From an uncultured Alphaproteobacteria bacterium (GTDB lineage: Bacteria > Pseudomonadota > Alphaproteobacteria > Caulobacterales > Parvularculaceae), in contig CADEDN010000024.1 in NCBI GenBank assembly GCA_902826095.1, positions 1 to 47,484 of the forward strand: a DNA stretch of 47,484 nucleotides, given 5' to 3'. Shown one piece after another: positions 36,779 through 47,484 of this stretch. Numbering within the stretch: the stretch's first letter is position 1; each line of letters begins with the position of its first letter. Below the pieces are notes generated by a model. It saw nothing but the letters and a program-made list of their open reading frames with translations. It was not told the origin of the DNA and made no database searches. Both the position numbers and the translations under genes were made by a program.

Positions 36779-38875
36779 TCAAAGCTTCGCCGACAATGAC
36801 ACGCGGATGGCGCGGGGGCTTCCCGGCGTGATGTTGTTGTTATTGTGGGCAGTCGGGAAATAGGTCTTGTCGAAGAGGTTTTCGACATTCGCCTGCGCCT
36901 CGATCCGCTCATTCAGCGTGTAATAGAGCGCCGCATCGACGCGCGTGAAGTCGGGGAGCGTGACGCTGTTGGACAGCGCCGCGAACTGATCGGTTTGGTG
37001 AATGACGCCGACGCTCGCGCGCCAATGGTCGGAAAATCGGTAGGCATTCCAGACGGCGAACGCATGTTTGGGCACAAGCGGGATTTGCGCGCCTGTCACG
37101 GCGGCCGTCGTCGCCTTTGTGACCTCCGCGTCCTGCAGCGTATAGCCCGCGAGAATCTCCCAGCGATCCGTCACCGAACCCGCGAGCGAGAGTTCAAAGC
37201 CTTTGCTGCGCGAGGCGCCGGTGAGAATGATAGAGCCCGCCGTCGGTCCCGGCGCCGCCGAATTTTCGCGGTCGAGCCGGTAGAGCGCCGCTGAAAGCGA
37301 CAGGCCCGCGCGCGGCTCCCATTTGACGCCGGCCTCGATGTTCTCGAAAGTCTCAGGCTCCAGCGCCGCCGTCGACGGCGTCAGCGATCCGAACTGATCG
37401 CCCGATTGCGGCAGGAACGACTTCGAATAGCTCGCATAGATCGTCGCGGTTTTGATCGGCTTGACGATGACGCCGCCGCGCGGGCTCCATTCATCATCCG
37501 TCCGGCCGACTTTCGCGCCGGTGAGCGAATTGGCGACGTCGATGTTGAAGCGGTCAAAGCGGACGCCGGCGATCAGCTGGAGAAACGGCGCAAGCTCGAT
37601 CTGGTCCTGCAGATAGACGGAGGCGGTCGTCAGGTCGACATGGTTGTCCGTCAGCAGGCCGAGGAAAACCGGCGGCGCGCTCGTCGTCGGGCTGGCGATC
37701 GTGACGAATCCCGCGCCGTCATTGTTGGTCGATCGAAGATTATCCGTATCCTGAACGCCGAATTCTCCGCCGAACAGAATCTCATGGGCGATCCCGGCCG
37801 TTTTCGCCTTCCAGATCAGATCCGTCTGGTTGAAGAAGTTCCGGCGATCCGTCGCGCTGAAATAAGCCTGCAGCGGAACCTCGCCATTCGCGCCGACGGC
37901 GCCGTTCGCATGAACATTCTGGTAGTATTTGTCGTAATCGGCCAGGCGCAGATGATTGCGCAAGGCGAAAGCGTCGCTGAATTCGTGCGCGAAGGCGAAA
38001 TCGCCGGCGTGCACGACGACGTCGCTGAACGAAGCGTCCGGATTGCCGAAGAACGCGCGGCGGTCGCCGGAATAGGGAAGGCCGTTCTCGGAAGGGACGC
38101 CGCGGTCGACGGTGCGCTCGTCGTCGAGAAATTCATAGGCGACGTCGATCGTCGTCGCGTCGCCGCGCGCAAAGCGCAGGGTCGGATTGACGCCGAAGCG
38201 CTCAATGCCGGTGAAATCGCGATAGCTGTCCGAATTTTCGTAAAACGCGTTGAGCCGCCCCGCGGCTGTTTCGGAAAACGCGGCGCCGAGATCGACCGCG
38301 CCGCGCGCGAAGCCGAATGAGCCGCCCTGCAAGGTCAGCGCGCGTTCGGGCTCAAATCCGGCGGTCTTCGTCACGCGGTTGATGACGCCGCCCGCGCCGC
38401 CGCGCCCGAAGATCATCGCATTCGGGCCTTTGAGGATTTCGATGCGCTCGGCGTTATACAGATCGCGGAAATATTGAACGTCGTCGCGGACACCGTCGAC
38501 ATAGAAATCCGCGGTCGAGGCGTTGCCGCGCAGCACCGGCGCGTCGCGATGGCCTTCGCCCTGCGCCATTGAGACGCCTGGCACATAGCGAACGACATCC
38601 GCCATCGAGCGCATCATCTGGTCGTCGATGAGATCGCGCGTGATCAGCGACAGCGATTGCGGGATGTCGATGAGCGCGGTGTCGGTCTTCGTCGCCGTCG
38701 CCGTATGCTCCTTCGCGTAATCGACGCGCTCTCCAGTGACGACCATCTGATCGGCGATCATCGCGTAACGCGCCGCATCCGTCTCATCGGCTCCGGCAGG
38801 GGCGACACTTGCGAGCGCCAAGCCGGCAAGAAGCAGCGATTTGCGGATCGGGGGGATTGCGCGGGACGCCATCAT
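36779..38875 (-). CDS. TonB-dependent siderophore receptor
   Basis: A 698-residue outer-membrane receptor of the ferric-siderophore class. Signal peptide to about residue 29 (SLLLAGLALASVAPAGA); then the plug domain (about 60-170: IPQSLSLITRDLIDDQ, VLRGNASTADFYVDGVRDD, IEILKGPNAMIFGRGGAGGVIN); then a 22-strand barrel ending VNVxNLFDKTYF-like (about 650-675) and the terminal aromatic-poor RVSLSAKL. Import needs TonB-ExbBD, which are not in the window. ATG 38875 follows GGAAGAA. A Fur-like site lies 70 bases upstream, so iron repression is likely. The siderophore cannot be named. Confidence 0.93.
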   Translation of the reverse strand: MMASRAIPPIRKSLLLAGLALASVAPAGADETDAARYAMIADQMVVTGERVDYAKEHTATATKTDTALIDIPQSLSLITRDLIDDQMMRSMADVVRYVPGVSMAQGEGHRDAPVLRGNASTADFYVDGVRDDVQYFRDLYNAERIEILKGPNAMIFGRGGAGGVINRVTKTAGFEPERALTLQGGSFGFARGAVDLGAAFSETAAGRLNAFYENSDSYRDFTGIERFGVNPTLRFARGDATTIDVAYEFLDDERTVDRGVPSENGLPYSGDRRAFFGNPDASFSDVVVHAGDFAFAHEFSDAFALRNHLRLADYDKYYQNVHANGAVGANGEVPLQAYFSATDRRNFFNQTDLIWKAKTAGIAHEILFGGEFGVQDTDNLRSTNNDGAGFVTIASPTTSAPPVFLGLLTDNHVDLTTASVYLQDQIELAPFLQLIAGVRFDRFNIDVANSLTGAKVGRTDDEWSPRGGVIVKPIKTATIYASYSKSFLPQSGDQFGSLTPSTAALEPETFENIEAGVKWEPRAGLSLSAALYRLDRENSAAPGPTAGSIILTGASRSKGFELSLAGSVTDRWEILAGYTLQDAEVTKATTAAVTGAQIPLVPKHAFAVWNAYRFSDHWRASVGVIHQTDQFAALSNSVTLPDFTRVDAALYYTLNERIEAQANVENLFDKTYFPTAHNNNNITPGSPRAIRVSLSAKL

Positions 38876-38944
38876 GGAATTTGTTCTTCCACTTGCGAGT
38901 CATTCTTAACTGTCGGCGACCCCTAACAAGCCGTCGCCCATATT

Positions 38945-38963
38945 GCAAGTGATTATCAATTAC
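38945..38963. promoter_or_regulatory. Candidate Fur box
   Basis: A 19-base dyad centred on 38954, GCAAGTGAT-T-ATCAATTAC, has 7 of 9 matching pairs and the core TGATTATCA typical of Fur sites. It lies 70 bases upstream of the TonB receptor start and about 135 bases upstream of the divergent DUF2807 gene. Confidence 0.6.
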
Positions 38964-39098
38964 AGAGCTGCGGCGCTTTGGCGGCGCCCTAATCGCCGAT
39001 CCGACGCCGGCGCGCGCCGGGGCGGATGGAAGGTTGGTCGCCGCAGCCCTAGCTTCAAACAGCGGCGCCGTTGTTTGCGACGCGAGCTGGAGTTTTCG

Positions 39099-39740
39099 AT
39101 GCGGATTGCAACTATCGGCGTGTTTCTCTTGGCGATTTCAGGCGTTGCTTGGGCTGGCGCTCCCGAGGAGCGCACGATCGGGCTCAAGGATTTCACGGCG
39201 ATTGAAATCAGCGGCGCCTATGATCTCGATGTCGAGGTCGGCGGCGATTATTCGATCCGGCTTTCGGGACCCGCGGAGGACATGGCCCGCGCTGAAGCGA
39301 GCGTTGAAAATGGCGCGCTGTTGCTCGGCGCGAAAAAACGCCTGCGCGGAATCAAGCATCATGGCGATCGCGATGGATTGCGCGCGGTCGTGACAATGCC
39401 GACGCTCGACCGCCTGTCGGTCTCCGGCGTGACGGATGCGGATATTCGCGGCGTCGACGCCGGTTTGTTCGAGGTCCATCTGTCGGGCGTCGGCGAGGTG
39501 ACGATCGCCGGGCGCTGCGGCAATCTGGAAGCGCGCGTTTCCGGCGTCGGCGAACTTAACGCCGAAGATCTTCGCTGCGCGGTCGCCGACGTATCGCTTT
39601 CCGGCATGGGTGAGGCTAGCATCTACGCGCGCGAGGCGGCGAGCGCGGAAGTCTCCGGCATGGGCGAAATCAACGTCTACGGATCGCCGAAGAAAGTCGA
39701 CAAGCGCGGCGGATTTTTCGCGGAAATAACGGTTCACTAG
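39099..39740 (+). CDS. DUF2807 exported protein, first of a tandem pair
   Basis: A 213-residue secreted protein: signal peptide RIATIGVFLLAISGVAWAGA, then a head GIN/DUF2807 domain that folds as a right-handed beta-helix. Repeating units are visible as LSGVGEVTIAG, VSGVGELNAED, LSGMGEASIYA and VSGMGEINVYG, spaced about 20 residues (about 125-205). The function of this family is unknown; adhesion or self-association has been proposed from the fold. ATG 39099 has GGAG 8 bases upstream. A paralogue follows after 31 bases, so both are probably cotranscribed. Confidence 0.85.
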   Translation: MRIATIGVFLLAISGVAWAGAPEERTIGLKDFTAIEISGAYDLDVEVGGDYSIRLSGPAEDMARAEASVENGALLLGAKKRLRGIKHHGDRDGLRAVVTMPTLDRLSVSGVTDADIRGVDAGLFEVHLSGVGEVTIAGRCGNLEARVSGVGELNAEDLRCAVADVSLSGMGEASIYAREAASAEVSGMGEINVYGSPKKVDKRGGFFAEITVH

Positions 39741-39771
39741 CAATGATCAATCATAATGACGGAGGGCGGCC

Positions 39772-40470
39772 ATGAGACTGTTTTTGGGATTCGTCATCGG
39801 GCTGGTTCTCGCTGCGGCGATCGCGGCGACAGCGCTGAAAGTCGCCTGGGGCGATCTGTCGGACATCGGCGAGCGCGATCGCGGCGAGGATGTGACGAAG
39901 ACGGTGGAGATCGCCGATTTCGACCGCATCAAGGCGGCCGGCGTTTTTGAGCTCGACGTGACCGTCGGCGGCGACGCTTACGCGCTCACTCTCTCCGGCA
40001 AGGAAGACGATCTCGCGCGGACGACGGCGAGCGTCCTGAACGGCGCGCTCCTTCTCGACACGAATGAACGCGACCGCGACGGCAGGCGGCGTCTGGTGAA
40101 GCATGGCGTGACCGCGACAATTTCAGCGCCCGCGCTCGTCGGCGTCGACGCGTCGGGCGTCGTTGAAGGAAAGATTGTCGGCGTCAACGCCGAAAACTTC
40201 GAAGCGGACATTTCCGGCGTCGGCGAACTTGACATCGCCGGAACCTGCGGCGCGCTCGACGCGGACGTCTCGGGCGTCGGCGAACTTGACGCTGAGGATC
40301 TCAAATGCCGCACCGTGAAGATCGACGTCTCCGGCGTCGGCGAGGCGAGCGTCTACGCCAGCGAAAGCGTCGACGCCGACATCGCGGGCGTCGGCAAGAT
40401 CGAGATCGCCGGCTCGCCCGCGAAGGTCACAAAGTCCGCGACGCCGTTCGGACGGATCAGCGTGAAATAG
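39772..40470 (+). CDS. DUF2807 protein, second of a tandem pair
   Basis: A 232-residue paralogue of the preceding gene. The N-terminal hydrophobic segment (LFLGFVIGLVLAAAIAATAL) is a signal or membrane anchor. The GIN domain has the same ladder of units (ISGVGELDIAG, VSGVGELDAED, VSGVGEASVYA, IAGVGKIEIAG). The two proteins align along the whole GIN domain, so the pair arose by duplication. GGAGG stands 7-11 bases before ATG 39772. It has no catalytic motif I can recognise. Confidence 0.85.
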   Translation: MRLFLGFVIGLVLAAAIAATALKVAWGDLSDIGERDRGEDVTKTVEIADFDRIKAAGVFELDVTVGGDAYALTLSGKEDDLARTTASVLNGALLLDTNERDRDGRRRLVKHGVTATISAPALVGVDASGVVEGKIVGVNAENFEADISGVGELDIAGTCGALDADVSGVGELDAEDLKCRTVKIDVSGVGEASVYASESVDADIAGVGKIEIAGSPAKVTKSATPFGRISVK

Positions 40471-40580: not shown

Positions 40581-41273
40581 ATGACGCGCCCGCAGGATTA
40601 TGACTGGATTGGCGCATTGCCGGAGAAAGCCCGCGACGCTGTGCTCGCCGGCTGCGTCAGGGTCGAATTGCCCGCCGGCGCCATGCTCTATCAACGCGAC
40701 GCCACGCCGAACGGGACCTACCGTCTGACATCGGGCCGAGCGCGGATGTTCTTCTTGAGCCCCGCCGGGCGCGAGCGCATCGTCAAGATTTCAGAGCCGA
40801 CGGAGACGATCGGCGATCTCGCGATGATCGACGGCAAGCCCAGAACGCTATTTTCCGAAACGATCACGCCGTGCGTGTTTGACTTTCTGCCCCGCGACAA
40901 GTTCCTCAATCTCCGCCGCACCTACCCGGAAATCGAGCCGGTGCTGGTCGCTTATCTCGCCTTTTCCTTGCGTCAGACGTTGCAATTCATTGAGGAGTTG
41001 ACCATCCACGAATTGCCGGGCCGGGTCGCCTTGCGCATTCATTGGCTGGCGGCCGGTGCGGCGGCGGAAAAAGGCCTTCCGGTCGAGATTCCGGTCGCGC
41101 AGGCCGATCTTGCGCTGATGGTCGGGGCGTCGCGGCAGTCGATCAACAAAGTGCTCGGCGATCTTGAAACTTTCGGGGCGATCGAGGCGCGTTATGGGAC
41201 GATCGCCGTCAAGTCGCTGGAAAAACTAAGGGATTTCGCCGCCGAGACAGAGCGATTGCCAGGACGCTTGTGA
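40581..41273 (+). CDS. Crp/Fnr-family transcriptional regulator
   Basis: A 230-residue regulator with an N-terminal cyclic-nucleotide-binding-like beta-roll (about residues 18-120), a dimerisation helix (about 122-150) and a winged HTH (VAQADLALMVGASRQSINKVLGDLETFG, about 175-202). The Cys spacing needed for the Fnr iron-sulfur cluster is absent (only two scattered Cys), and the Arg/Ser pocket for cAMP is not clear, so the signal is unknown. ATG 40581 opens the conserved frame. It follows the DUF2807 pair by 110 bases and lies next to the P460/hemoglobin genes, so it might regulate either; I found no TTGAT-N4-ATCAA site nearby. Confidence 0.9.
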   Translation: MTRPQDYDWIGALPEKARDAVLAGCVRVELPAGAMLYQRDATPNGTYRLTSGRARMFFLSPAGRERIVKISEPTETIGDLAMIDGKPRTLFSETITPCVFDFLPRDKFLNLRRTYPEIEPVLVAYLAFSLRQTLQFIEELTIHELPGRVALRIHWLAAGAAAEKGLPVEIPVAQADLALMVGASRQSINKVLGDLETFGAIEARYGTIAVKSLEKLRDFAAETERLPGRL

Positions 41274-41374
41274 TCCCTTGCCGCTGACTGACCAAGACTT
41301 TTTGACGGATTGTCGTCGCGCCGACACTGACTCTGCCGCAATTGCTTTAGGCTGATCAAACGAAATCCATTGGG

Positions 41375-41500: not shown

Positions 41501-42145
41501 TCAGCGCTTCAGCCTTGCGTAAAACTGCGTGAACACCATGTCGGTCGCGGCGTTCGCCTGATGGCATGCGGCGCAGGCCTCGGCCGGCATCGCGGCGGCG
41601 CTTTCTTCGTAAGGCGGCGCATGATGGCCGAAATTGTAATAGCACCAATTGTTGGTTTCGGCGCAGCGCGCGCTGTCTTTGACTGAAACGTCGACGCCGT
41701 GTCGTTCGCCGGGGAAATATCCGCGTCCGGATGATTCGACGCGCGAGCCGTCCGGAAACTGCCGTTCAAGCGTCAATTGCAGCTCCTTGAACAGGATCGT
41801 CCCTTCCGGGAACGCGCCGGCGCTCAAGAAGGCGTCGTAGGCCTCGGGCTGGATGTAGACGTTGTGAAACTCAGGAAACGGCGCCTGTTCGTTGTTGAGC
41901 CCCTGCGGCGTCAACGGCGAACCGAGATAGACCCAGCGCTCAAAACCTTCCGGCAACAAAAGCTCGCCCTCTTTCGAATATTTCGGCTTCCAATCGTCGT
42001 GCGCGCCGGCTGCGGCGGCGCTGACGGCGCCATCCGCGGTCGGCGCCGAATTTTTTCCGCCGCAGGACGCGATCAGCGCCGCCGCGATCGAGCACGCGCA
42101 TATCGCCGCGAAACGGACGGCCAGCTTTGGGCTTGAATTCGTCAT
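41501..42145 (-). CDS. Cytochrome P460 family lipoprotein
   Basis: A 214-residue cytochrome P460-type protein. MTNSSPKLAVRFAAICACSIAAALIASC ends in a lipobox (IASC), so it should be lipid-anchored on the periplasmic side. The P460 domain spans about residues 55-212 (PEGFERWVYLGSPL, FHNVYIQPEAY, FKELQLTLERQFPDGS), with the heme c motif CAACH near 193. P460 enzymes oxidise hydroxylamine, via a heme-Lys cross-link, to nitrous oxide or nitric oxide; members without the Lys are ordinary c-type cytochromes. AGAGGT stands just before ATG 42145. It is divergent from an exported hemoglobin. Confidence 0.88.
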   Translation of the reverse strand: MTNSSPKLAVRFAAICACSIAAALIASCGGKNSAPTADGAVSAAAAGAHDDWKPKYSKEGELLLPEGFERWVYLGSPLTPQGLNNEQAPFPEFHNVYIQPEAYDAFLSAGAFPEGTILFKELQLTLERQFPDGSRVESSGRGYFPGERHGVDVSVKDSARCAETNNWCYYNFGHHAPPYEESAAAMPAEACAACHQANAATDMVFTQFYARLKR

Positions 42146-42247
42146 TTCGACCTCTTTCCAAAGTTTTTGAAAATTGCTGAACGCGCGACATCGAGGAACA
42201 TATCCTCCAATAGAATCGTTCGTCGGCTCGGCCTTGGCTCCCCGGTC

Positions 42248-42272
42248 GGAATTGTTGTCCTCGCGTCCGCAA
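42248..42272. promoter_or_regulatory. Shared 25-base site upstream of the hemoglobin gene
   Basis: A site beginning GGAATTGTT and ending CGCGTCCG-CAA recurs at 44952-44976 with 21 of 25 identities. It lies 77-101 bases before the hemoglobin ATG and 103-127 bases before the divergent P460 ATG. The two conserved blocks, about one helical turn apart, suit an AraC-type activator; the araC/cupin gene at 43988 is the obvious candidate. Confidence 0.65.
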
Positions 42273-42348
42273 ATCGGACTGAAGCCGCGCTGCGCGGCAA
42301 TGGCGTGCTACGCACTCACCGCAGTCGTTCGAGCGGAGAGATAATATC

Positions 42349-42864
42349 ATGAAGATGAAACTGTCGGACGCGCGTTTATCGCTTCTCATCGCCGTTTTAG
42401 CCCTTGCGATCGCCGTTCCTCCCGCAGCCGCGGCTGCTGAAGCTGAGGCCGTCGCGGAAAAATCGCTGTATGAGCGCCTCGGCGGCTATGAAGGCGTTTC
42501 CGCGGTTGTCGATGAATTCGCTGACCGGCTTTTCCATGACAAGCGGATCAGTCAGTTCTTCATCGGCATGGGCGACGACACGCGCGCGTCGTTCAAGCAG
42601 AAGAACAAGAACCTTGTGTGCAACGTCACCGGCGGCCCGTGCAAGATCATCAGCCGCAGCGCCAATGACGCTCATGACGGCCTCGGCATCACCGCGGCGG
42701 ATTTTGATGTTGTCGCCGGACACCTCAAGGACGTCTTGAACGAATTCAAAGTGCCGGAACGCGAGCAGGGCGAGTTGTTCGAGATCATTCTCGGCCTGCG
42801 CCCGGCGATCGTCGATCGGCCGGACGAAACGAAGCTCAGCAAGGACGCGCCGACGCGTCGCTAG
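42349..42864 (+). CDS. Exported group 1 truncated hemoglobin
   Basis: A 171-residue protein: signal peptide (LSLLIAVLALAIAVPPAAAAA, about residues 10-30), then a group 1 truncated hemoglobin domain (about 38-160). SLYERLGGYEGVSAVVDEFADRLFHD is the usual start; NVTGGPCKI and SANDAHDGLGI follow, with the proximal His in the latter. Truncated hemoglobins bind O2 and NO; most are cytoplasmic, so export to the periplasm is uncommon. GGAGAG stands before ATG 42349. It is divergent from cytochrome P460 and carries an upstream 25-base site shared with the ferritin-like operon. Confidence 0.9.
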   Translation: MKMKLSDARLSLLIAVLALAIAVPPAAAAAEAEAVAEKSLYERLGGYEGVSAVVDEFADRLFHDKRISQFFIGMGDDTRASFKQKNKNLVCNVTGGPCKIISRSANDAHDGLGITAADFDVVAGHLKDVLNEFKVPEREQGELFEIILGLRPAIVDRPDETKLSKDAPTRR

Positions 42865-42938
42865 CGCGCCTGCGCCCGCCGCACCCGTCGCGCAGGCGAG
42901 CGCAATCCGCTTTGCCGATCGGCGCGCCGGTCACGGGC

Positions 42939-42965
42939 CGGAATTGGAGCCCTTAGCGGACGTCC
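42939..42965. promoter_or_regulatory. Partial third copy of the shared site
   Basis: GGAATTG, AGCC, GCG and CGTCCG occur in order as in the two strict copies, but the outer blocks are five bases further apart (GGAAT-N16-CGTCC). It precedes the NTF2-like gene by about 116 bases. The spacing also resembles an ECF-sigma promoter; the match may be chance. Confidence 0.3.
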
Positions 42966-43080
42966 GCCCGCCAAATTTGACGGCGAGCGGTCCGCCGGAG
43001 CGCCGCGCGCCGTTCGCCCCTACGATCCGGCGATGAGAATCGCCAGACGCCCGCCCCAGCAATGTTGAAAGGAAAACATA

Positions 43081-43446
43081 ATGAAAGACGACACAGCGAT
43101 GGACATCAAGAACCTCGAGATGCAGGTCAACAAGCTCACGCGCGAAGGAAAGATGATTGAGTCGATCGACGCCTATTTCGCCGACGATTGCGTCTTTGAA
43201 GAGCCTGACGGGACGAAACGCAATTCCCGCAAGGCCGAGCGCGATCACCTCACCAAATTTTTCTCGACGCTGAAAAGCTTCGACGGCGCGACGCTTCACG
43301 CCCAGAGCGTCGGCGATAAAGTCTCGATGAGCGAGTGGACCTTCAAGATGACGAGCGGCGAGGGCAAGCCGATCGTCTGGAACGAAGTGCTGGTCCGCAA
43401 TTGGGACAACGGCAAAATCGTTTCAGAAAAATATTACGCCGCCTGA
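43081..43446 (+). CDS. NTF2-like/SnoaL-like small protein
   Basis: A 121-residue protein with an NTF2-like cone fold: an N-terminal helix (LEMQVNKLTREGKMIESIDAYFADDCVFEEPDG), central strands, and C-terminal strands (PIVWNEVLVRNWDNGKIVSEKYYAA). The family covers ketosteroid-isomerase-like enzymes, polyketide cyclases and many unknowns; no catalytic residue set identifies a reaction. No signal peptide. GAAAGGAAAA precedes ATG 43081. It is convergent with DUF488, 4 bases apart. Confidence 0.78.
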   Translation: MKDDTAMDIKNLEMQVNKLTREGKMIESIDAYFADDCVFEEPDGTKRNSRKAERDHLTKFFSTLKSFDGATLHAQSVGDKVSMSEWTFKMTSGEGKPIVWNEVLVRNWDNGKIVSEKYYAA

Positions 43447-43450
43447 CGCT

Positions 43451-43804
43451 TCAACGAATGGCGCGATCGAGAAACGCTTTGAGAACGGTCGCGCTGTTTT
43501 TCTCTTCGTCCTTCGCGGCGTAGACGAAAGTGACAATCTTGCCGGCGCTCTTGGACTTCAGCGCGGCGACCGCCTCGCCATTGGCCTCAAGTTCGGCGCG
43601 GTAGCGGCGCTGGAATTCGGGCCATTTGTCCGGATCATGCGCGTACCACTGCCGAAGCGCCGCGGAGGGCGCGACCGCCTTCATCCATTGGTCGATGACG
43701 GCCGCTTCCTTGGTCAGGCCGCGCGGCCAAAGCCGCTCGACAAGAATGCGAAGGCCGTCGGATTTCGCCGGCGGTTCATAGACGCGCTTCAATCGGATGG
43801 GCAT
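43451..43804 (-). CDS. DUF488 family protein
   Basis: A 117-residue cytoplasmic protein of the DUF488 (MarR-like/YeaO) family: IRLKRVYEPPAKSDGLRILVERLWPRGLTKE at the start, WMKAVAPSAALRQWYAHDPDKW in the middle, and VTFVYAAKDEEKN near the end. The biochemical role is unknown. ATG 43804 lacks an SD. It is transcribed away from the AraC gene, with 183 bases between their starts. Confidence 0.9.
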   Translation of the reverse strand: MPIRLKRVYEPPAKSDGLRILVERLWPRGLTKEAAVIDQWMKAVAPSAALRQWYAHDPDKWPEFQRRYRAELEANGEAVAALKSKSAGKIVTFVYAAKDEEKNSATVLKAFLDRAIR

Positions 43805-43987
43805 GGCGAAACAATAGGCCGTCCGGCCAGTAAGTGAAGATCGATTTCAGGGCGAGAAGACGCGCCCGCATCGGCTCCAATCGGCGCGCGCCTGACCGAA
43901 ACGCCGAAACTATTGATTGAACGTCCAAGGCCATTGGCGCTATTTTTCGAGTCAGCCAATTTGTCGCCGCCCGCGAAGGAGGGCGAA

Positions 43988-44935
43988 TTGGACGTTCTCA
44001 GCGACATTCTCGACGCCGTCCGGCTTAAAGGGACGCTCTATTTCCGCACGGAATTCACGCCGCCATGGGCGGTGAAGGTTCCCCAATTCTCGAACGTCGC
44101 GCGATTTCATTTGGTCGTGCGCGGCGCCTGCTTTGTCGAAGTTGAGGGCGAGGCGAGCCCGATTCGGCTGGATGTCGGCGACCTCGTGGTCATTCCCGGC
44201 GGGAGAGCGCATGTTCTCGCCGACGCGCTCGGTCGCGAGCCGGTCGTCGTCGACGAAGTAGTGAGCCGCTCAGGGTTCAAAGGCGTTGGCGCGCTCGTTT
44301 ACGGCGGCGAAAACCGGTCCGCGCCGACGCGGCTCGTCTGCGGTCATTTCGCTTTCGCGGAGCATGGCGGGCGGATGCTGCTGAGCGCGCTGCCGCGAAT
44401 CATCCATGTGCGGCGCAGCGGCGCCTTCGGCGACGCTCTGCTTGAGGAGGGAATGAAATTCATCGCCGCCGAGACGGCGGAAGGCGCTCTTGGCGGCGCG
44501 GCCATCGTGAACCGGCTCGCCGAGATTCTTTTCATCCAGACGATCCGTCATGTGGCGGCGACGCAAGGGTCTGGCGTTCTTGCCGGCGTTCGCGACGGAC
44601 ATGTCGGAAGGGCGATCGGGGCGATCCACCGCGAGCCGGAGCGGGAATGGACCGTTGACGACCTTGCGCGCGAAGCGGGACTTTCTCGGACGGTGTTCGC
44701 CGAGCGGATGCGCGATCTCGTCGGCGTCGCGCCGATGCAATATCTGACCGAGTGGCGCATGGAATGCGCATTGCGGCTGCTGTCGGAATCGGCGCTGCCG
44801 ATCGCCGAGATCGCCAAACGATCCGGCTACAATTCGGATGCGTCGTTCAATCGGGCGTTCAAACGGCATTTCGGCGTCGGGCCGGGCAAGTTCCACAAAT
44901 CCGCCGTCGAGCCCGACGACCGCGATTGCGAGTAA
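43988..44935 (+). CDS. AraC-family regulator with cupin sensor domain
   Basis: A 315-residue regulator: N-terminal cupin (cupin_6, about residues 15-180, with LDVGDLVVIPGGRAHVLAD as a cupin motif) and two HTH motifs in the C-terminus (WTVDDLAREAGLSRTVFAERMRDLVG near 225-250 and IAEIAKRSGYNSDASFNRAFKRHFG near 272-296). I chose the TTG at 43988 because AAGGAGG stands 5-12 bases before it; the frame is open back to a TTG at 43913 without an SD. It lies 139 bases from the ferritin-like gene, and a 25-base site in that gap is repeated before the hemoglobin gene, so this is the likely regulator of both. Confidence 0.9.
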   Translation: MDVLSDILDAVRLKGTLYFRTEFTPPWAVKVPQFSNVARFHLVVRGACFVEVEGEASPIRLDVGDLVVIPGGRAHVLADALGREPVVVDEVVSRSGFKGVGALVYGGENRSAPTRLVCGHFAFAEHGGRMLLSALPRIIHVRRSGAFGDALLEEGMKFIAAETAEGALGGAAIVNRLAEILFIQTIRHVAATQGSGVLAGVRDGHVGRAIGAIHREPEREWTVDDLAREAGLSRTVFAERMRDLVGVAPMQYLTEWRMECALRLLSESALPIAEIAKRSGYNSDASFNRAFKRHFGVGPGKFHKSAVEPDDRDCE

Positions 44936-44951
44936 TCCTGTCCTGATCGCC

Positions 44952-44976
44952 GGAATTGTTAGCCGCGCGTCCGGAA
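44952..44976. promoter_or_regulatory. Shared 25-base site upstream of the ferritin-like operon
   Basis: GGAATTGTT, CC and CGCGTCCG-GAA match the site at 42248-42272 (21 of 25). It lies 99-123 bases before the ferritin-like ATG and 16 bases after the araC stop. The near equal distance to the two downstream start codons supports a functional role. Confidence 0.65.
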
Positions 44977-45074
44977 GGCCGCCAGATTCGAGACAAATGA
45001 TCTGACAGCAAGCCATTGTCGTATCGTCGAGAGTCGCGATTCGCGATTTCAACCAGATCAAGGGAAATAAGAAG

Positions 45075-45677
45075 ATGACCTTTCACCAATCGCCCGCCGA
45101 CCGCGCGCTCAGCCGTCGCAAGGCGCTCGCCGCCGGCGGCGTTTTGTCCGTAGCAGGAATATCTGTTCTCGCCGGATCGGCGTCGGCGGGCCTGTTCGGG
45201 GGAAAGAACAAGAAAACAAAGGGCGACCCGGAAGCCGACGCGGCGCTCATCAATACGGCGATCTCGCTTGAGCATGAAGGGATCGCCGCCTACCAGATCG
45301 CGGCGGAAAGCGGCCTTCTTGAGCCGGCGGTTCTGGAGGTCGGGGTTCTCTTTCAAAGCCATCACAAGGCGCATCGCGACGAGCTCGCCCGGATCGTGAC
45401 GACGCTTGGCGGGACGCCCGTCGAAGCCGACTCGCAGGCCGCCTACGCCGAGCAAATTGAAGCCGGCAATCTCAAGAATCAGGCGGACATCCTGCAACTC
45501 GCGATCCGCCTCGAATTGGGCGCGGCGAACGCCTATCTCGGCGTGCTGCCCGGACTGATGGATCCGGATTATCACCACCTGTTCGCGCGGCTCGCCGCAG
45601 ACGAGGCGATGCATTGGGCCGCGCTAAAGGGCGCCGTCGGCGAGGCTTTGCCGCAAAACGCGCTCAGCTTTGGTTGA
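45075..45677 (+). CDS. Tat-exported ferritin-like domain protein
   Basis: A 200-residue protein with a twin-arginine signal (LSRRKALAAGGVLSVAGISVLAGSASA, about residues 13-39), followed by a four-helix ferritin-like domain. Metal-ligand-type residues recur: SLEHEGIAAYQ (helix 1), SHHKAHRDEL (helix 2), IRLELGAANAYL (helix 3) and ADEAMHWAAL (helix 4). Tat export implies the metal site is filled in the cytoplasm. GGGAAATAAG precedes ATG 45075. The cytochrome c gene follows after 5 bases in one operon. It could be an iron store, a diiron enzyme or a peroxide sink. Confidence 0.85.
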   Translation: MTFHQSPADRALSRRKALAAGGVLSVAGISVLAGSASAGLFGGKNKKTKGDPEADAALINTAISLEHEGIAAYQIAAESGLLEPAVLEVGVLFQSHHKAHRDELARIVTTLGGTPVEADSQAAYAEQIEAGNLKNQADILQLAIRLELGAANAYLGVLPGLMDPDYHHLFARLAADEAMHWAALKGAVGEALPQNALSFG

Positions 45678-45682
45678 TCCGG

Positions 45683-46087
45683 ATGCGGAAAATACTCGGC
45701 GGAACGCTTTGTTCGGCGGCGGCCCTGGCGGCGCTCGGGTCCGCCGCCCTCGCGCAATCGCCCGCGACGGGCGACGCCGCGGGGGGCGAAAAGCTCTACC
45801 AGACGAAATGCGGCGGATGCCATTCGCTCGACATGAACCGCGTCGGCCCCGCCCATCGCGGGGTCGTCGGCCGCAAGGCGGGCTCGGCGCCCAATTACGC
45901 CTATTCGCCGGCGCTGAAAGCGGCCGACATCGCCTGGGATGAGAAGACGCTCGATCTCTGGCTGCAAAATCCGATGGCGATGGTCAAAGGGACGCGGATG
46001 GGGTTCCGTCTCAGCGACGCGCAACAACGCGCAGAAATCATCGCCTATCTGACGGCGATGTCCGCGAAGGCGGCTGGCGGCTCCTGA
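45683..46087 (+). CDS. Class I cytochrome c
   Basis: A 134-residue periplasmic cytochrome c: signal peptide to about residue 25 (LCSAAALAALGSAALAQ), heme-binding CGGCH near 43-47, and a distal Met in GTRMGF near 106-109. KTLDLWLQNP and IIAYL are typical cytochrome c2/c552 segments. ATG 45683 lies 5 bases after the ferritin-like stop. It may carry electrons for the ferritin-like protein, the P460 lipoprotein or the respiratory chain; it also lies beside nuoH, but separated by 76 bases. Confidence 0.93.
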   Translation: MRKILGGTLCSAAALAALGSAALAQSPATGDAAGGEKLYQTKCGGCHSLDMNRVGPAHRGVVGRKAGSAPNYAYSPALKAADIAWDEKTLDLWLQNPMAMVKGTRMGFRLSDAQQRAEIIAYLTAMSAKAAGGS

Positions 46088-46163: not shown

Positions 46164-47237
46164 ATGGAACAGTTCTGGACCTTCTTGACTTCGCGGCCGA
46201 CCGATCAGGGTTGGCTCTGGTGGCTCGTGCCGACGACACTTCAGGCGCTCGCCCTCATTGTGGCGCTGCTCCTCGCGCAGGCGTTCCTGATGTATTTCGA
46301 CCGCAAGGTCTGGGCGGCGGTGCAGATGAGAAAGGGGCCGAACGTCGTCGGCCCGTTCGGATTGCTGCAGTCTTTCGCCGACCTTTTCAAATTCGTCTTC
46401 AAAGAAATCGTCATCCCGGCGGGGGCGAACAAGGCGCTCTTCCTGCTGGCGCCGATTATCACCTTCGTTCTGGCGCTGGTCGGATGGGCGGTCATTCCGG
46501 TCGGGCCGGGCATGGTCGGCGCCGACATCAATGTCGGCATTCTCTATCTCTTCGCGATTTCATCGCTGGGCGTTTACGGCATCATCATCGGCGGCTGGGC
46601 GTCGAACTCGAAATATCCGTTTTTGGGATCGCTTCGCTCGGCGGCGCAGATGGTCTCCTACGAAGTCTCGATCGGCTTCGTCATCATCACGGTGTTGCTG
46701 CTCGTCGGGTCGCTCAATCTTTCCGACATCGTCAACAGCCAGGCGCGGGCCGGGGGCGGCTTTTGGAACTGGAACTTCATCCCGCTCTTCCCGATGTTCG
46801 TCGTCTTCTTCATCTCGGCGCTCGCCGAGACGAACCGGCCGCCTTTCGACTTGCCGGAAGCCGAAAGCGAACTCGTCGCCGGCTATCAGGTCGAATATTC
46901 CTCGACCCTCTTCCTGATGTTCATGATCGGCGAACTCGCGAACATCGTCCTCATGTGCGCGATGCTGACCTTGCTCTTCTTCGGCGGCTGGCATTCGCCG
47001 ATCCCGTGGGCGCCGCTCGAAACAATTCCGGTTTTCTGGTTCATGCTGAAGACGTTCTTCTTCTTCTTCATGTTCGCGATGGTGAAGGCGATCGTGCCGC
47101 GCTATCGCTATGACCAGCTGATGCGGATCGGCTGGAAGATTTTCCTGCCGCTGTCGCTCGTCTGGGTGTTGCTTGTCGCCGGCGTCATGCTTGCCTTCCC
47201 TGACCTTGCCGCCTATTTCCAGAGCTGGAGGTTATAG
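46164..47237 (+). CDS. nuoH: NADH-quinone oxidoreductase subunit H
   Basis: A 357-residue complex I membrane subunit that forms the quinone-entry channel. Eight helices are apparent. Conserved segments include [23 protein letters not shown] (about 39-61), the loop [27 protein letters not shown] (about 217-243, the acidic quinone-site loop) and [13 protein letters not shown] near 312-324. ATG 46164 matches the family start. It is followed by nuoI after 2 bases. In many alphaproteobacteria nuoG comes directly before nuoH; here a cytochrome c gene does, so the nuo cluster is split at this point. Confidence 0.97.
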
Positions 47238-47239
47238 AG

Positions 47240-47484
47240 ATGTCGCGCATCGTGCAGGCGTTGAACGGCCTCATGCTGAAGGACTTCGTCGGCGCGTTCT
47301 TCCTCGCGATGAAGTATTATTTCCGCCCGAAGGCGACGATCAATTACCCGTTCGAGAAGGGGCCGCTGTCGCCGCGGTTTCGCGGAGAGCATGCGCTGCG
47401 CCGCTATCCGAACGGCGAGGAACGCTGCATCGCCTGCAAGCTCTGCGAGGCGATCTGCCCGGCGCAGGCGATCACGATCGAGGC
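47240..47484 (+). CDS. nuoI: NADH-quinone oxidoreductase subunit I (partial)
   Basis: The first 81 codons of a ferredoxin-like complex I subunit; the gene runs off the window. [38 protein letters not shown] and the first cluster motif [12 protein letters not shown] are diagnostic. GGAGG stands before ATG 47240, overlapping the end of nuoH. Confidence 0.95.

Follow-up and report, generated by a model that had tools for sequence, protein, structure and literature searches.

A tandem direct repeat is a probable operator for an AraC/Cupin_6 regulator encoded among cytochrome P460, globin and ferritin genes in a Parvularculaceae bacterium

We analyzed a stretch of 47,484 nucleotides ("the window") from an uncultured alphaproteobacterium of the family Parvularculaceae (contig CADEDN010000024.1 of assembly GCA_902826095.1). 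In this window, an AraC-family regulator with a Cupin_6 domain, which we will call the AraC, is encoded between two promoter regions that share a site. One of these regions lies between divergent genes for a cytochrome P460 and a truncated hemoglobin, and the other precedes genes for a ferritin-like protein and a cytochrome c. Judging from related genomes, the shared site is probably the operator of the AraC, which would control a small regulon. The regulon looks local (P460, the truncated globin, the ferritin, the cytochrome c, and perhaps the AraC itself). It may include the AraC gene and, by synteny, the nearby genes for a SnoaL-like protein and a DUF488 protein.

A preliminary description of this DNA reported two 25-base sites that agree at 21 of 25 positions. 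Reading both sites confirmed this: 42248-42272 is GGAATTGTTGTCCTCGCGTCCGCAA and 44952-44976 is GGAATTGTTAGCCGCGCGTCCGGAA. The two sites do lie at similar distances from the downstream starts, as had been claimed (101 bp from the start of the site to the globin's ATG at 42349, and 123 bp to the ferritin's ATG at 45075). Also, the araC-type open reading frame ends at 44935, which is indeed 16 bases short of the second copy. The best ungapped 25-mer that is common to both promoter regions matches at 21/25 bases, while in 1,000 simulated pairs of promoters (first-order Markov, equal lengths), the maximum was 20/25 and none reached 21/25.

If the site recurred at many unrelated places, or if it were not conserved upstream of orthologous genes, then a shared regulator would be doubtful. 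Neither is the case. With a consensus of 21 fixed bases and up to three mismatches, the only matches in the bacterium's own 3.79 Mb genome are these two sites. The same consensus matches only these sites in the window, compared to a mean of 0 in 100 shuffles. A shorter 21-base pattern, again with up to three mismatches, has 8 matches in the genome versus 5 for a reversed control, and only the original two sites have fewer than three mismatches. Related sites are found before orthologous ferritins in two other genomes, G064 (locus L061) and G283 (locus L121), as well as between the AraC and P460 genes of G047 (L090/L110), whose site belonged to the training set of the matrix described below. 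The site in G064 is much diverged from the window's (7 of the 21 fixed bases differ). Its start is 123 bp from the first in-frame start codon of the ferritin (TTG) and 135 bp from the ATG. These comparisons favor the earlier claim that one regulator, probably the AraC, serves both promoters; that it is an activator, which was part of the same claim, stays conditional (see below).

The shared site held up, but the 25-mer did not hold up as the unit. It comprises the second half-site, and the tail of the first half-site, of a tandem repeat with a period of about 21 bp. (For example, CCGGAA occurs at 44950 and again at 44971, exactly 21 bp apart.) Relaxed scans with the whole 25-mer yielded only background in the relatives, until a CGTCC core was seen in their promoters. 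By eye, CGTCC-NAA is recurrent in the relatives' intergenic regions. The half-site is TTGC-N4-CGTCC, and it forms a direct repeat with a 21-bp period beside related AraC/Cupin_6 genes of the order Caulobacterales.

We checked the spacing by counting pairs of exact CGTCC, on one strand, within flanks of 350 nt at 28 loci with related AraC genes (including the window's). Among spacings of 8-44 bp, there were 11 pairs at 21 bp and one each at 18, 31, and 40 bp. After 6 near-duplicate flanks were dropped, 9 pairs remained at 21 bp, as compared to 10 for all other spacings from 6 to 100 bp put together, and no other single spacing had more than 3 pairs. At 19 loci with more distant Cupin_6 proteins, there were no exact CGTCC pairs at 21 bp. 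When one mismatch was allowed, these loci had 14 pairs at 21 bp, while no other spacing had more than 6 (one of the 19 loci repeats a site from the close set). What the sequence comparison shows is that the tandem repeat exists, how its halves are spaced, and that it goes with this group of AraC genes. At L066, which encodes a paralogous Cupin_6 protein in the bacterium's own genome, we saw no convincing tandem. At another AraC locus (L051), the top match near the AraC scores 17.7 bits, is AT-rich and unlike the consensus, and was not used.

To score candidate operators, we used a matrix built from 16 sites in relatives, with the sites from the window and from L061 left out. Operator 1, between P460 and the globin, has the top tandem score in the whole window (14.4 bits, with a random expectation of 0.09 per window length). 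Its two cores, CGGTC (42243-42247) and CGTCC (42264-42268), are 21 bp apart. Candidate operator 3, before the AraC, scores 7.1 bits (rank 4 in the window); by chance, about 4 scores at this level are expected per window, or 0.04 across the three promoter regions combined. Operator 2, before the ferritin, scores 6.5 bits at the 21-bp spacing (rank 6), and its second half alone scores 11.1 bits. At all four loci that contributed no training sites (the window, L061, L065, and L119), the top match was in a promoter of the module. None of 400 column-permuted matrices reproduced this 4/4 result, and 1 of 400 equaled the window's three of six top matches; the regions for these permutation tests were written down after the matches had been seen. 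Overall, both the relatives and operator 1 have half-sites in direct orientation with a spacing of about 21 bp, close to the regulator gene and to its putative targets.

We then asked if the site goes with the AraC or with the ferritin. With spacings of 20 or 21 bp both allowed, a fitting site (11.8-27.3 bits) precedes 4 of the 5 ferritin genes that are linked to the AraC: 27.3 bits at L121, 15.3 at L061, 13.4 in the window (at 20 bp; 6.5 at 21 bp), and 11.8 at L119. In contrast, all 13 ferritins without the AraC beside them score below 9 bits (-3.9 to 8.9). Here, "without" means that no match to the AraC was among the genes called in the retrieved stretch; one of the 13 is a second ferritin in L061, at a distance of about 5 kb from the AraC, and some of the genomes carry an AraC relative elsewhere. 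L061 has both kinds of ferritin, which score 15.3 versus -0.1 bits.

This contrast also bears on another explanation for the 25-bp block, which is that it might be the -35/-10 promoter (GGAATT ... CGTCC) of an extracytoplasmic function (ECF) sigma factor. The block has about the length of an ECF promoter, and in several relatives, the ferritin/cytochrome c pair is adjacent to genes for ECF sigma factors or for ChrR-like anti-sigma factors. (Pfam identifies an ECF sigma factor in L052, L056, and L061 and a ChrR cupin in L054 and L061. The remaining neighbors were judged by eye, and neither type was seen in L055.) The bacterium's own genome also has a ChrR-like gene. However, the 12 kb around that gene and its ECF neighbor (identified by eye) contain no such site: the best match has 6 of 21 mismatches and lies inside a called gene. 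Because ferritins without an adjacent AraC lack the repeat, and the genome's own ECF/ChrR locus lacks it as well, the site appears to follow the AraC and not the ferritin gene. Furthermore, the spacing from GGAAT to CGTC is 11 bp, while known ECF promoters have a spacing of about 16 bp; the 21-bp repetition of the half-sites beside AraC genes also speaks against this reading. We consider an ECF promoter very unlikely. Together, the repeat in the relatives, the ranking of the held-out loci, and the ferritin contrast support the earlier suggestion that the AraC is the protein that binds.

A different regulator might bind the site instead, such as the Crp/Fnr-type protein encoded at 40581-41273. 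This gene is next to P460 and could be a second regulator of the cluster. FNR-like boxes (TTGAT-N4-ATCAA with up to two mismatches) are more common in the window than expected (23 versus 12.4, and none of 100 shuffles reached 23). Of these boxes, one in the ferritin leader (45048-45061) and one at 41346-41359 have two mismatches each. On the other hand, there is no such box in the P460/globin region (42146-42348) or inside either 25-mer, so we rejected the FNR box as the shared site. Crp/Fnr proteins bind a dyad, which a direct repeat is not, and in genomes where the neighbors differ, the AraC still has the repeat next to it. We give this alternative little credence.

Several points weigh against the AraC as the regulator of both promoters or limit the evidence for it. 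First, the 21-bp spacing was itself a rule for selecting the matrix sites. Second, operator 2 fits the 21-bp model poorly, and its 6.5 bits are within the range of the AraC-less ferritins. The ferritin region's score of 13.4 bits at 20 bp is almost equaled at 14 bp (11.2 bits), which implies that operator 2 is degenerate and that its register is uncertain. Operator 3 is weak, and scores like those of operators 2 and 3 are expected 4-5 times per 47-kb window. Third, the equal distance of 123 bp in G064 is valid only with the TTG start. Fourth, the AraC-linked ferritin at L120 has no site of its own (-1.2 bits); the SnoaL gene that precedes it has a 23.3-bit site, which was in the training set. 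Fifth, we noticed no exported globin among the called genes of the relatives' AraC clusters, with no separate search for it. Sixth, our scan of 398 genomes of the order for the full tandem (up to one mismatch) speaks for the AraC but is partly circular. It found 17 matches, versus 11 for the reversed control. Of the 17, 5 lie elsewhere and 12, from 9 genomes, have a Cupin_6/AraC relative as a neighbor (no more than about 300 bp away in 11 cases and 2.3 kb away in one), but 11 of the 12 are at loci that the motif came from, or at near-copies of them. What the scan adds independently is a new match, the twelfth (in G056), and the finding that away from the AraC relatives the pattern is not seen more often than the control. 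Finally, the strict tandem consensus has no match in the bacterium's own genome, so members of the regulon outside the cluster cannot be listed.

Given the poor fit of operator 2, only site 1 might be a true operator of the AraC, with site 2 being a decayed or convergent match that has no function. The low score at 21 bp and the alternative 14-bp register would both fit with this. But site 2 is identical to site 1 at 21/25 bases and has one good half, and a related site is at a similar position before the orthologous ferritin in G064. Hence, we view a functionless site 2 as unlikely, and we still favor an operator for the AraC at both promoters.

The features of the cluster are listed in Table 1.

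Table 1. Putative operators and genes of the cluster, with positions in the window.
Feature	Position	Strand	Details
Cytochrome P460, CxxCH (CAACH)	41501..42145	-	Pfam PF16694, 4.6e-27
Putative operator 1, tandem half-sites	42233..42276	+	Between divergent P460 and globin; relatives-only matrix
Truncated hemoglobin, group 1 (HbN-like)	42349..42864	+	PF01152, 2.1e-10
SnoaL-like protein	43081..43446	+	PF12680, 6.5e-10
DUF488 protein, divergent from the AraC	43451..43804	-	PF22752, 2.4e-37
Candidate operator 3, weak tandem half-sites	43891..43934	+	DUF488/AraC divergent intergenic region; second core CGTCC at 43922-43926
AraC-family regulator, Cupin_6 and AraC helix-turn-helix, 315 amino acids	43988..44935	+	PF12852, 5.1e-50; PF12833, 1.9e-22
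Putative operator 2, half-sites before ferritin	44937..44980	+	Second core CGTCC at 44968-44972
Ferritin-like protein (Ferritin_2), Tat-like signal	45075..45677	+	PF13668, 4.4e-20
Cytochrome c, signal-like N-terminus	45683..46087	+	PF00034, 3.1e-9

The AraC has the helix-turn-helix of its family (it matches PF00165 at 9.8e-14 as well as PF12833). We placed its start at the TTG that follows AGGAGG (43977-43982) because many relatives begin with MDVLSDIL or similar at that place. At E ≤ 1e-40, relatives of the AraC are present in 52 of the 398 genomes; the closest are from G007 (56% identical), G064 (54%), and G187 (49%).

The module around the AraC is partly conserved: in other genera, the AraC adjoins genes for DUF488, SnoaL, ferritin, cytochrome c, or P460. 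For example, the gene order is DUF488, AraC, an extra cytochrome c, ferritin, cytochrome c in G064; DUF488, AraC, SnoaL, ferritin, cytochrome c in G283; and AraC, SnoaL, ferritin, cytochrome c in G084. G187 has SnoaL, AraC, cytochrome c, and ferritin grouped together. The SnoaL proteins next to the AraC in G187, G084, and G283 are 62-69% identical to the window's, and many relatives have the cytochrome c next to the ferritin. After the AraC of G047 come a P460 that is 62% identical to the window's and a P460-cytochrome c fusion. In G007, which has the closest AraC, the neighbor is a glyoxalase-like gene, and there is no match to the ferritin. Other relatives of the AraC adjoin YHS, glyoxalase-like, or MAPEG genes (identified by Pfam for L067 only and otherwise by BLAST) or a DUF4142 gene with a cupredoxin gene. 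The same tandem operator lies before the DUF4142 and cupredoxin genes of related genomes (L098:224-1370 and L135:379-1534), which again encode a pair of a small signal-bearing protein and an electron carrier.

As for the products, P460 aligns with solved P460s (3.5e-38, phmmer), with K120 at Lys106 of NsP460 and D152 at position 131 (counted by hand). The aligned lysine, along with the CxxCH heme motif, separates it from cytochrome c'-beta by sequence; the cross-link itself is predicted. By eye, its N-terminus looks like a signal or lipoprotein sequence, the globin has an N-terminal signal-like segment, and the ferritin has an SRRK motif near its N-terminus. The globin's best match of solved structure is HbN (5.7e-14). 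Because P460 retains the cross-link lysine and the distal aspartate, and the globin is closest to HbN, a role for these two proteins in handling nitrogen oxides or hydroxylamine is plausible.

In other parts of the window, we noticed (by eye) nuoH and the beginning of nuoI at 46164-47484, directly after the cytochrome c. Neither nuoG nor other nuo genes were seen upstream in the window. The nuo operon may be split at this place, or there may be a misjoin in the contig, whose end falls inside nuoI. Two adjacent open reading frames at 38943-40470 (265 and 232 amino acids) have similar-looking translations and are next to an apparent gene for a TonB-type receptor (36779-38875). The left end of the contig (112-1626) has recombinase-like open reading frames. 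The receptor and the recombinases were also identified by eye.

If the AraC does bind the repeat, then a dimer would probably contact the two direct half-sites, which are spaced about two turns of the helix apart (21 bp is two turns). Such binding would occur at the P460/globin promoter, at the ferritin/cytochrome c promoter, and, less strongly, at the promoter of the AraC gene. Its likely effect is to activate the divergent P460 and globin genes, the ferritin and cytochrome c genes, and perhaps the AraC gene; activation is proposed because it is the habit of the AraC family. Such a regulon would deal with periplasmic iron and reactive small molecules, with P460 and the globin acting on hydroxylamine or nitric oxide, and the ferritin and cytochrome c handling iron and electrons. 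As with the distant relative RclR, an oxidant or an electrophile may serve as the signal. Binding by this AraC, activation, and the signal are all things that we infer.

These results offer a candidate consensus for the operators of a group of AraC/Cupin_6 regulators, so that the targets of the group become predictable. They also connect a single regulator with P460, with a truncated globin, and with a ferritin of the Tat type. And since the same ferritin/cytochrome c pair has ECF/ChrR as its neighbor in some genomes but the AraC in others, one regulator has apparently replaced the other.

How does this system compare to known ones? Like the P460s of Nitrosomonas and Methylococcus, the window's P460 has the cross-link lysine and a distal carboxylate (Asp) at the aligned positions (the roles of these residues are as given in a review, PMC11928373). 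Unlike theirs, its gene shares an intergenic putative operator with a globin gene. The main text of that review uses neither the word AraC nor the word operon.

The ferritin and cytochrome c pairs that are linked to ECF sigma factors or ChrR are of the same kind as the pair in the window. They differ in having ECF sigma or ChrR-like neighbors, and the AraC's repeat was not seen there. More speculatively, an RclR-like AraC/cupin branch, responding via a thiol pair (C48 and C118) or another cupin-borne signal, could have taken over periplasmic pairs of ferritin and electron carrier from ECF/ChrR and, here, have added P460 and an exported globin. This would give one AraC regulon for reactive nitrogen or chlorine stress in the periplasm, but we find this scenario doubtful.

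The nearest named NCBIfam model for the AraC is RclR (9.7e-30), with a score of 103.8 bits against a curated cut-off of 400, so it is not an RclR by that cut-off. By sequence, it is a distant relative. RclR from Escherichia coli is a sensor of hypochlorous acid that uses Cys21 and Cys89 (PMC7464077). The AraC is 27% identical to it over residues 1-302 and retains the equivalent of Cys89 (C118), but it has a threonine in place of Cys21, and so it lacks the redox pair of RclR. Among eight aligned relatives, C118 is present in 7 and C48 in 6. The P460-linked AraC of G047 lacks both cysteines, which argues against a thiol switch that is common to the whole group. Unlike RclR, the AraC has no rclABC next to it; its neighbors are P460, globin, SnoaL, DUF488, ferritin, and cytochrome c. 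The rclA-rclR intergenic region of E. coli (L141:3503-3727) contains a direct repeat, TGATATTTT, with a 20-bp spacing (12/14 bases), near CGTC. This is suggestive only, as a candidate operator for RclR.

In the openly licensed literature, we found no description of the half-site TTGC-N4-CGTCC or of this gene set (a text search cannot query the motif itself). This type of control is already known. According to PMC9723621, few regulators bind direct repeats, and AraC-family proteins belong to those few. Overall, the repeat described here resembles the tandem direct-repeat operators of the AraC/XylS family, such as those of the araI1-I2 type: both have two direct half-sites about 21 bp apart, with two short blocks in each.

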